Positions 1-3,336 of a stretch of 64,000 nucleotides of DNA are shown here, in pieces. This stretch comes from Alicyclobacillus contaminans DSM 17975 (GTDB taxonomy: Bacteria; Bacillota; Bacilli; Alicyclobacillales; Alicyclobacillaceae), in NCBI RefSeq assembly GCF_000429525.1, contig NZ_AUCA01000003.1, positions 1 through 64,000 of the forward strand. Direction: 5' to 3'. The position numbers and the translations under genes are program-made. The notes under the pieces were generated by a model. That model had not been told where the DNA came from and did no database searches. It saw nothing but the letters and a program-made list of their open reading frames with translations. Each line of letters starts with the position of its first letter. The stretch's first letter is position 1.

Positions 1-1
1 G

Positions 2-259
2 CAGAATCAGACTCCAACGACTGCACCTGGAGAAAAAAAGAAGTCGTCAGGACTCGGACTAATCGTTAGCATGCTCTGCATCGGATTCGTGATCTGGCTC
101 ATTCAGGTCGTGATCACATTCGTGCGCCATCACTGGATCATCAGTGCCGCATCCGGCATCGCCATTGTCGCCGCCATCATATGGACAGTGAGGAGGTCGC
201 GGCGCGCGGCAACCATGCCCGCCAATGGACAGGAGGAAGCTCAGTCACCGACGGAGTAA
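2..259 (+). CDS. C-terminal part of a two-helix membrane protein (start outside window)
   Basis: The reading frame is open from base 2, so this is the end of a longer gene starting left of the window. The visible part has a short polar stretch (QNQTPTTAPGEKKKS), two hydrophobic helices (about 'LGLIVSMLCIGFVIWLIQVV' and 'IISAASGIAIVAAIIW') joined by a short basic loop (RHH), and a basic-then-acidic tail. An internal ATG at 71 could serve as a start but lacks a convincing ribosome binding site. The gene lies 27 bp upstream of the serine recombinase on the same strand and is probably part of the same element. The family is not recognised. Confidence 0.5.
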   Translation, partial: QNQTPTTAPGEKKKSSGLGLIVSMLCIGFVIWLIQVVITFVRHHWIISAASGIAIVAAIIWTVRRSRRAATMPANGQEEAQSPTE

Positions 260-286
260 AACACGCGCACCTAGGAGGAACATCAT

Positions 287-1822
287 ATGGACTACCCGCG
301 TAATCTCCAACATGTCGCCATCTACCTACGTAAGTCCCGCTCCGACCTCGAAGCAGAGGCTCGCGGCGAAGGCGAAACCTTGGAGAAACATCGGCGTACG
401 TTGCTTGAGATCGCAAAGAAACAGCAGTACGTCATTCGGGACGTTTTTGAAGAGATCGTTTCCGGTGAACGCATCGTGGACCGGCCGCAGATGCAACAGT
501 TGCTCCACAACGTCCGCGACGGACAATACACCGCCGTACTCTGCATGGACATCGACCGTTTGGGTCGCGGCAATATGATAGACCAAGGGCTGATTCAGGA
601 CGCATTCAAAACGTCTAGGACGCTCATCATAACGCCGCGTAAGGTCTATGACCTCCAGAATGAACTGGACGAAGAATGGAGCGAATTTGAGGCGTTCATG
701 GCGCGCAGAGAACTGAAGATCATCACCAGGCGCCTGCGGAGAGGCCTGATGGCCAGCGCGAGGGAAGGACGCTTCATCGCGAGAAAGGCGCCGTACGGAT
801 ACCTGAAAGACGAAAACAAACGCCTGTACCCAGATCCAGAGACTGCCCCCATCGTGCGCATGATCTTTGATTGGAGCGGCCAAGGCTTAGGCATCGTTGC
901 TATCTCCCGACTGCTCCGGGAAATCGGGGCGAAGCCGCCGGAAAACCATCGCGGCCCCGACCGATGGACGCATCCCACCGTTCGCGACATCCTGCGCAAT
1001 GAGGCCTATTTGGGCAAGGTCGTCTGGAACAAGTATCGGCACCGAAAAGTCAACGGGCACATGAAACGTGAGTTACTGCCGCGTGAAGAATGGATCGTGG
1101 TCGAAAATGCTCACGAACCCATCATCACAAAGGAGCAATGGGAGCTTAGTCAGCAAAACCTGTCACGCCGCAAACCTCGCGTGCCAATAAACTATGACCT
1201 GGTGAACCCTTTAGCAGGTATCTTGCGTTGCGGTGTTTGCGGACGAGTCATGGGTAAGGTGAAACATACTGGGCGCCAGATGCGGGTCTGTTGCATGGAT
1301 CGATTCTGTCCGACTGGGAGCGCCATACTGTCGAAGGTTGAAGAAGCTTTGTTGACTAGGTTGTCTGAACTCGCGTCACAGATGCCTCATGTGGCTCTGG
1401 CAGCAGAGCGTAAGAATCAGGAACATGCGGTGAAACTCGCGGAAAAGAAGATACGCTCTCTCGAACAGCAAATTGAGTTAAAGCGCGTGCAGCAAAACGA
1501 GTTGCACAATCTGTTGGAGCAGCGTGTTTACACTGTGGAAATGTTTTTGGAGCGGAGCCGGATCGTCGGCGATGAATTGAATAACCTGGAATCAGAGTTG
1601 GCGCGAACAAAATCCGAATTGGAGCAGTTGCGGGCATCGGCAAACAAACAATATGATATTATCCCTGCGGTCGCTGAAGCTGTTCGGCAGTATCGGATCA
1701 CAGATGATGTCGAGACAAAAAACGCGATCCTAAAATCCGTCGTCGAAAAGGTTATCTTCCACAAGGAAAAGGGCAAGGGCATGTACAAGCCATTCACTCT
1801 GGATATTTACTTGCGTCAGTAG
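287..1822 (+). CDS. Large serine recombinase / site-specific integrase
   Basis: DNA strand exchange at attachment sites, probably integration and excision of the element it sits in. Domains in order: N-terminal resolvase fold with nucleophile Ser17 in YLRKSRSD and the DIDRLGRG motif at residues 88-95; recombinase domain with an APYGYL motif near residue 165 and the WTHPTVRDILRNEAYLG motif; zinc ribbon with C315-x2-C318 and C335/C336...C341; then a long charged coiled coil (about residues 370-470), typical of phage-type serine integrases. At 511 residues it has the normal length. ATG follows a strong AGGAGG at 274-279. The stop lies about 20 bp from the disrupted ATP-grasp gene, which supports this being the integrase of the element. 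It looks intact and catalytically competent. Confidence 0.93.
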   Translation: MDYPRNLQHVAIYLRKSRSDLEAEARGEGETLEKHRRTLLEIAKKQQYVIRDVFEEIVSGERIVDRPQMQQLLHNVRDGQYTAVLCMDIDRLGRGNMIDQGLIQDAFKTSRTLIITPRKVYDLQNELDEEWSEFEAFMARRELKIITRRLRRGLMASAREGRFIARKAPYGYLKDENKRLYPDPETAPIVRMIFDWSGQGLGIVAISRLLREIGAKPPENHRGPDRWTHPTVRDILRNEAYLGKVVWNKYRHRKVNGHMKRELLPREEWIVVENAHEPIITKEQWELSQQNLSRRKPRVPINYDLVNPLAGILRCGVCGRVMGKVKHTGRQMRVCCMDRFCPTGSAILSKVEEALLTRLSELASQMPHVALAAERKNQEHAVKLAEKKIRSLEQQIELKRVQQNELHNLLEQRVYTVEMFLERSRIVGDELNNLESELARTKSELEQLRASANKQYDIIPAVAEAVRQYRITDDVETKNAILKSVVEKVIFHKEKGKGMYKPFTLDIYLRQ

Positions 1823-2842
1823 GCGATAACATTGGTGGTTCAATTCTATAAACCACACATGCCCCTCTTCATCCACACCGAGATCAAACCCAATCAGACC
1901 AACGGTCGGTAAGCGCTGGCTGAGCTGCCGGGAGATGTCGAGCGCGCACTTCTCCAAATCGTGTCGGGGAATGAACTTCCCTTCGCGCTGCGCCAGAGAC
2001 TGCAGTTGACCGAACGACATGCGTTCTCCGCCCGCGATGATGTTTGTGACCACGCCACCTGTGGGCGCCAATTTTGGGATGACGCCGACGACATGCCACG
2101 CTCCGCGTCCACCGCGGTGAGTGACAATCCGAAAATCGACCTTGCGCCCCCCCACCGTCAACAACTTTAAGCCCTGCTGCAGGAAATGACGTTGTTGCTT
2201 CAGACGATGCTGCAGATAGTTCGCCACCTCCTGCCGCGTGAGAACCAACCGCGTCCTCCGTCCATGCCGCTGTCTGTCCACACTGATGCGATACTTCCCA
2301 TCTGCGGTGGCCTGAATGCGCGTGACCCCCATGCCTCCGTACCCGCCGACGGGTTTTAGATATGCATCGCGCCACCGGTCGATGGTGTGAAGGGTCTGGG
2401 CTCCAGAACGGGGCAGAACGGCCGGTGGAACATACTTGCCCGCCTCGGTCGTCTTCAACCACCGCTGCATGACCCACTTGCTGTACATCGGCGGATTGAA
2501 GAGGGGAATGCCCTGTTGACGCGCGTAGCGCCGGAGCTTTGCCGTGTATCCCCGAATGGCCAGATGAACAAAGACGTTGTCGTAAATGACGTCCGGCAGG
2601 GCGGTCTTCCGGGCGACCCATGGCCCGGAGGGTTGATTTGCCGACACGGGCTCCCATGCCTGGACGGTTCCCTGCGCCCAATCGACCTGCAGCGGATGAA
2701 ACAGCGCCAATCGAGCCCCAATCTCCGTAGCCCGTGCCGCCATCCGCCGGAACATTAAAATCGGCCGACGTGCTGCCGTCCGCGCGCCCGCTTTCGGCAA
2801 CACGGTGGTGGCAACGCCAATTCGCACCATTTCTCGACTCAT
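1730..2842 (-). pseudogene. YheC/YheD-type ATP-grasp protein, 3' end replaced by the integrated element
   Basis: Resembles the spore-coat-associated YheC/YheD ATP-grasp family (function not established in that family). Visible family features: N-terminal 'RIGVATTVLP', the ATP-grasp substrate/ATP region 'LKPVGGYGGMGVTRI', 'KVDFRIVTHRGG' and the Mg-binding end 'GFDLGVDEEGHVWFIELN'. Native homology stops at about residue 335. The remaining ~35 codons (to the stop at 1730) are only the antisense of the recombinase 3' end, so the family's normal C-terminal segment is lost. ATG 2842 is preceded by GGGGTGA. The ATP-grasp loop looks complete but the C-terminus is not, so activity is doubtful. panD lies divergently upstream. 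Confidence 0.7.
1835..1856. other. Candidate attachment site (hybrid attR/attL) of the serine recombinase
   Basis: An imperfect dyad GTGGTT (1835-1840) ... AACCAC (1851-1856) is centred between 1845 and 1846, exactly where the interrupted ATP-grasp gene reaches its conserved WFIELN motif. Serine integrases recombine at short, partly symmetric sites with a central dinucleotide; here that would be TC at 1845-1846. The dyad is seen directly. Its role as crossover site is inferred and needs the other end of the element or an empty site. Confidence 0.4.
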
Positions 2843-2937
2843 TCATGTCACCCCATCCAAACGCCTTGCACATTATATGTGAGACGCAGGACATGGGCTG
2901 GGCAATCGTCCAGAATGAGGAAAAAGGAGGGCTGACG

Positions 2938-3336
2938 ATGTTGAGACAGGTTTGTAAAGGAAAGATTCACCGCGCTACAGTGACGCAGGCGGATTTGAAT
3001 TACATGGGGAGCATCACATTGGATAGCCATCTGATGCGGGCCGCCAATATCTGGCCATTTGAAATGGTGCAGATCACGAATCTCTCCAACGGCGTCATCT
3101 GGCACACGTACGCATTGGAGGGGGCTGCCGGCAGCGGAACGGTGTGCCTCAACGGCCCACCGGCCAGGCATTTTCAACCGGGAGACCTGGTCATCATCCT
3201 CTCCCTGGCCTATGTGACAGCGGAGGAGTGGAAAACGCTCAAGCCCTCCGTCGTTTTCGTGGACCAGCGCAACATCATCACCTCTGTCGTTCAGCACCCG
3301 ATGAGCGACGCGCCAGGGGCATTGAGCCCGGATTGA
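2938..3336 (+). CDS. panD: Aspartate 1-decarboxylase precursor
   Basis: Makes beta-alanine from L-aspartate for pantothenate and CoA synthesis; a pyruvoyl enzyme formed by self-cleavage. The processing site is visible as Gly24-Ser25 in 'LNYMGSITLD', with Lys9 in the conserved 'KGKIHRATVT' and the 'GAAGSGTVCLNGPPAR' loop. Length is 132 residues (family about 126-140). The ATG at 2938 is chosen over longer in-frame starts because it has AAGGAGG at 2924-2930 and gives the canonical N-terminus. panB and panC are not beside it in this window. Confidence 0.96.
   Translation: MLRQVCKGKIHRATVTQADLNYMGSITLDSHLMRAANIWPFEMVQITNLSNGVIWHTYALEGAAGSGTVCLNGPPARHFQPGDLVIILSLAYVTAEEWKTLKPSVVFVDQRNIITSVVQHPMSDAPGALSPD

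Follow-up and report, generated by a model that had tools for sequence, protein, structure and literature searches.

An interrupted ATP-grasp gene at a contig end

The window analysed here, a stretch of 64,000 nucleotides, is the first 64 kb of a 115-kb contig (C3) in the assembly of Alicyclobacillus contaminans DSM 17975 (3.27 Mb, 111 contigs). At its left end, a gene for a large serine recombinase (LSR) converges on a minus-strand gene for an ATP-grasp protein of the YheC/YheD type, beyond which lies panD; we refer to the DNA that carries the recombinase as element A. The features of the locus are the following.

2–259, plus strand: C-terminal portion of a membrane protein of phage type, truncated at the contig end; the full-length copy matches PHROGs without assigned function (E 3e-16)
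287–1822, plus strand: LSR (integrase) of element A; 511 amino acids, PF00239 and PF07508, PHROG integrase (E 5e-106)
1730–1844, minus strand: element-derived tail of the ATP-grasp open reading frame; 38 codons, antisense to the end of the recombinase gene, unlike all relatives
1824–1833, plus strand: one half of the inverted repeat in attP (GATAACATTG), its counterpart being on contig C47
1845–1846, minus strand: predicted crossover at GA, a dinucleotide of the WFIE Glu codon; the sole crossover with a symmetric attP
1845–2842, minus strand: 5′ part of the YheC/D-type ATP-grasp gene (PF14398, E 1.9e-49); the 3′ part is G000:C47:17445–17537, minus strand
2872–2901, minus strand: CCAG-N18-CATATAAT, a motif that resembles a promoter, precedes the ATP-grasp gene and is conserved in relatives
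2941–3336, plus strand: panD (aspartate 1-decarboxylase; TIGR00223 above cut-off), the divergent neighbour and a marker of the intact locus in relatives

The first-pass annotation had read this locus as an ATP-grasp gene interrupted by a recombinase-carrying element, and this is confirmed: the LSR occupies 287–1822 and the resemblance of the gene to its family ends at the junction. The ATP-grasp frame (2842–1730, minus strand) scores 168.7 bits against ATPgrasp_YheCD (PF14398; curated cut-off 26.8), and no NCBIfam equivalog of YheC or YheD is above cut-off for it. It covers profile positions 1–227 of 255 and therefore lacks its C terminus. Aligned with intact relatives, it departs from them after WFIE, where the relatives go on with x-NPKP(A/S)R and the window reads LNHQCYRLL; the gene is cut at its FIE-x-NPKP motif. 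The annotation had placed the break at a conserved WFIELN, which is the right motif, but only WFIE is genic: L and N are encoded by the element, and their likeness to the family motif is coincidental. The recombinase stop does lie close to the break, at 23 bp from the GA core rather than the 20 bp given, and the tail that runs antisense to the recombinase gene measures 38 codons instead of about 35.

The break takes off only about 33 residues, and with its fused tail the frame is 370 amino acids long, similar to intact relatives. A profile search of the whole genome for the missing 33 residues gave a single match, at C47:17445–17537 (E 4.6e-17), 1.5 kb from the end of that contig. The 3′ fragment expected at the other end of the element thus exists, once; it had been predicted to lie left of the window and cannot be seen there because base 1 of the window is the end of the contig. 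We rejected as the missing gene end a 37-bp match (87% identical) between window positions 1841–1877 and C18:23034–23071, which belongs to an intact sigF; this match spans the GA core and may be a secondary attachment site or a chance convergence of DEEGHxW codons. The broken arrangement is found in none of the relatives with an aligned 3′ end. The gene adjoins panD in 20 of 30 loci, and it has no match at E 1e-30 in 14 of the 61 genomes searched, one of these being a genome of the same genus (G001).

Reconstruction of the attachment site

We defined an LSR as a protein of about 450–600 amino acids with a Resolvase N-terminal domain and PF07508. The protein encoded at 287–1822 has both (PF00239, E 1.9e-15; PF07508, E 8e-28), with a zinc ribbon under the cut-off, and its gene lies beside an attachment site that combines a short core with a symmetric attP. 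To choose the crossover, both junctions were set in the frame of the gene and the symmetry of the resulting attP was scored over 25 flanking positions. Crossover at GA gives GATAACATTG-ACGTTTCATT-GA-ATTGAACCAC-CAATGTTATC, which is palindromic at 19 of the 25 positions and has intact arms (10/10 bases); the other crossovers at this site (TT, AA and AT) reach at most 11/25. The joined flanks, representing the empty site, are WFIEANPKPARS and remain in frame (GTG TGG TTT ATA GAG GCC AAT CCG AAG CCA, that is, VWFIEANPKP). Both gene parts are kept and their precise joining restores the frame, as expected of an intervening element. With the matching 3′ fragment, the in-frame joined site and a symmetric attP composed from both element ends, the proposal of a site-specific integration into a resident gene holds.

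To check the method, we applied the same procedure to six yhbH elements of named relatives that have both ends on one contig. The core fell at CA of the same Gln codon in all seven yhbH elements (the six relatives and this genome), and at the same GA in both of the spoVFB elements (this genome and G001, with a symmetry of 20/25 in G001). This agreement shows that the procedure finds real attachment sites.

On C47, the 3′ fragment is preceded by the other end of element A, with an endolysin of the amidase/peptidoglycan-binding type and a small open reading frame in the holin position. Contigs C47 to C88 and parts of C28 to C37 yielded no overlap with the free element ends that would supply the interior of element A; at least C89 to C95 consist of N in the data compared. 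The genome has two different phage structural modules (portal, capsid and tape measure), on C36 and on C65, which may represent the main parts of element A and of element B (see below). The C36 module also contains a TnpA/TnpB-like pair at approximately 13.5–15.0 kb. Counterparts of the LSR in IMG/VR are only 24–25% identical, and those among phage records at most 41%. Inspection by eye for a sigma-E promoter at the recombinase gene found none that was convincing.

Four recombinases in four split genes of known or probable sporulation function

Exactly four LSRs in the genome are above the Pfam cut-off, and each of the four sits in a split gene with a known or, for the ATP-grasp gene, probable role in sporulation. 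The genes spoVFB (dipicolinate synthase), yhbH, prkA and spoVR all function in sporulation. Every gene part was located, and the parts join in frame in each of the four cases.

Element A: YheC/D-type ATP-grasp gene, C3/C47; attP symmetry 19/25
Element B: yhbH, cut after EVNQYN; LSR at C7:94.2–95.8k, 52% identical to the LSR of the window; attP symmetry 15/25
prkA element: cut at ISADE/MIVAHTNE, the two parts being separated by about 3.1 kb on C7; LSR at C7:90.2–91.8k; attP symmetry 12/25, with an ambiguous crossover (GA and AA equal at 12/25)
spoVFB element: cut after TYEEA; LSR at C71:1442–2851, 3′ part at C6:74229–74744; attP symmetry 16/25

The stop of the element B LSR adjoins the cut yhbH, the 3′ part of which lies at C72:1809–1946 (E 9e-28) and is followed by spoVR. 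This element also has a gene for a PemK/MazF-like toxin with a C-terminal double zinc ribbon (C72:6421–6981). Elements A and B share DNA: window bases 1–300 are identical to C7, where the stretch that includes 2–259 recurs upstream of the element B LSR. The two recombinases are 86% identical over alignment columns 1–150 and 32% identical over columns 201–500. These alignments suggest a mosaic origin of the LSR, in which exchange of the DNA-binding half would have switched the target as well.

A single gene of the genome exceeds the TIGR01292 cut-off for thioredoxin reductase (trxB, C7:89115–90017), and it lies in the prkA element. The same is true of G001, in which the only thioredoxin reductase at the TIGR01292 level lies inside a prkA element (C6:18033–18935). 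Between the two prkA elements, the LSRs are 42% identical and the trxB genes 89% identical.

In G001, an intact spoVFB is present on C8, and contig C15 (48,217 bp) is exactly one spoVFB element, the ends of which are stretches of about 95 bp identical to the two sides of the intact site. Both the occupied and the empty site were therefore in the sequenced DNA. The assembly contains both states of the site, as would result from a mixture of carriers and non-carriers just as from developmental excision. The LSR of this element is 60% identical to that of the spoVFB element in this genome and is a different recombinase from that of element A. Judged by the sizes of its open reading frames, the 48-kb element appears conjugative rather than phage-like, and it seems to carry a gene resembling spore-germination permeases.

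Recombinases of relatives follow their target genes

The closest recombinases among named genomes are from Alicyclobacillus, Sulfoacidibacillus and similar metagenome-assembled genomes. All 14 named homologues of the LSR (43–48% identical) adjoin a sporulation locus, which is a truncated yhbH in 12 cases and cotJ in 2; in the latter (Alicyclobacillus kakegawensis and Alicyclobacillus acidiphilus) the LSR directly follows cotJA–cotJB. The tree of the recombinases groups them by target, with the yhbH LSRs together (support 82/89) and the window LSR as sister to the cotJ pair (97/95). At three loci, L117, L123 and L127 (Alicyclobacillus tolerans), the central segment of yhbH is enclosed by two LSRs, which indicates two elements in one gene, and in G009 and G037 LSRs occur at several places of the prkA–yhbH–spoVR operon. 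G009 also has spoVFB split by an LSR element (C151) at the same site as in this genome. Alicyclobacillus tolerans and Sulfoacidibacillus thermotolerans are among the relatives with a yhbH element. Whole yhbH elements of 2.9–7 kb occur, each with an LSR and open gene parts. They are too small for a phage, and their retention of recombinase and open gene parts is expected if reconstitution of the gene is under selection. A 39% identical LSR in another genus of the family (G002, C210) adjoins the 3′ portion of a gene for a sigma factor resembling SigK, an arrangement of the skin type.

The target gene and the mother cell

In Bacillus subtilis, yheC and yheD belong to the sigma-E genes and are activated by SpoIIID (PMC517825). 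Almost all intervening elements described in sporulation genes have a mother-cell gene as their target (PMC6957869). A motif of the form [CA]CAG-N18/19-CATATAAT is present approximately 30–40 bp before the start of the ATP-grasp gene in 16 of 30 upstream regions, compared with 0.2% of shuffled sequences; this CATA-type motif resembles mother-cell sigma-E/K promoters. By analogy with these B. subtilis members of its family, which need not be orthologues, sporulating cells probably express the ATP-grasp gene in the mother-cell compartment.

Explanations for the interrupted gene

We consider it probable that element A is a temperate-phage-type element that was integrated by its own LSR and is excised in the mother cell, restoring the ATP-grasp gene. 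The element would have entered at the GA near the 3′ end of the gene. During sporulation, the LSR and a postulated directionality factor would cut it out in the terminal mother cell to give the rejoined product WFIE-ANPKPARS, and the forespore would keep it; element A would then act like skin in sigK or SPbeta in spsM. The link to sporulation is strengthened by the presence of the other three LSRs in sporulation genes and by the occupied and empty spoVFB site in G001. An ordinary prophage might instead use a conserved gene that is dispensable for growth as a safe attB, excise on induction only and leave its lysogens without the gene and without developmental control. In favour of this, the gene lacks a match in 14 of 61 genomes, G001 included, and so may be dispensable, lysis-type genes are present in element A, the genome contains two phage structural modules and the break removes few residues. 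We nevertheless regard an ordinary prophage as unlikely, given that all four LSRs, including that in the dipicolinate synthase gene, are in known or probable sporulation genes, that small prophage-free yhbH elements retain their LSR and open gene parts, and that the ATP-grasp gene is preceded by a mother-cell-like promoter motif.

There is a still smaller chance, a slight one, that element A is decaying and fixed, with an LSR that is inactive or lacks a partner and a truncated ATP-grasp protein that is either non-functional or good enough. The fused frame is open and of normal length, the directionality factor is a postulate and the interior of the element was not joined to its ends among the contigs compared, all of which would suit decay; the full-length LSR with both domains, the open gene parts, the intact attP arms and the exact fit of the attachment halves to the family frame speak for a working element. 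The chance that the gene is intact in the organism and that the contig was contaminated or misjoined at a repeat is negligible. The assembly is fragmented (111 contigs) and the element ends coincide with contig ends, but the gene–element junction is internal to C3 and distant from its end, the 3′ part is single-copy on C47 and the contamination of the assembly (CheckM-type estimate) is 0.27%. A misjoin would also not yield a palindromic attP from two element ends.

If element A is excised in the mother cell as we propose, the location of all four LSRs in different known or probable sporulation genes suggests that a cell may need several excisions to make a spore. We put forward, as a possibility that we hold with less than even confidence, that sporulation relies on at least four mother-cell excisions (ATP-grasp gene, yhbH, prkA and spoVFB). 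In that case, the germ line could not dispense with the prkA element, as the genome has no other canonical thioredoxin reductase gene, and a differentiating mother cell would give up a housekeeping gene.

Relation to known intervening elements

Earlier intervening elements were described one by one (in sigK, spsM, gerE, spoVFB, spoVR, kamA and yabG). The genome-wide match between LSRs and known or probable sporulation genes, the multiply split prkA–yhbH–spoVR operon of relatives and the sister LSR clades that follow different sporulation targets make a general rule testable, namely that mobile elements have come, time and again, to target genes needed only by a cell that will soon die, in which excision would be free of cost to host and element. 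Should all four elements be cut out in the mother cell, each spore would require four recombinations. The dataset also supplies LSRs paired with attB and attP sites with exact cores.

Mechanistically, element A is a known kind of intervening element, of the skin and SPbeta type. In the literature that we searched, we found no report of yheC/D, yhbH or prkA split by an element, or of four such genes in one genome; mentions of yhbH in Paenibacillus larvae prophages were rejected as precedents, being annotation lists. The SPbeta element in spsM of B. subtilis (PMC4191935) is likewise phage-type, has its own LSR inside a sporulation gene and rejoins the gene in frame on excision, whereas element A has another target gene and host, and its excision is predicted. 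Skin in sigK of B. subtilis and Clostridioides difficile (PMC6957869, PMC5025042) is likewise an LSR element that splits a gene, there an established and here a probable mother-cell gene; element A differs in that it targets a YheC/D-type ATP-grasp gene and has endolysin-type genes at its end. Elements of the same class with different targets are gin in gerE (PMC5595907), phi3T in kamA (PMC6957869) and yin in yabG, which is reported not to be required for sporulation (PMC10747680). To the extent that vfbin in spoVFB and the spoVR element of Bacillus weihenstephanensis are described in the papers that cite them (PMC6957869, PMC10747680), spoVFB is also split here (C71/C6), in G001 and in G009; the likeness is one of target gene, and the target in the window is another gene. 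The same bacterial family provides a further prophage in a sporulation gene, phage MMB025, which occupies sigK of Alicyclobacillus acidoterrestris (PMC13141910) and also has a short core flanked by inverted repeats. It was reported as the first in the genus and targets sigK, whereas the present genome has four split genes, all different from sigK.
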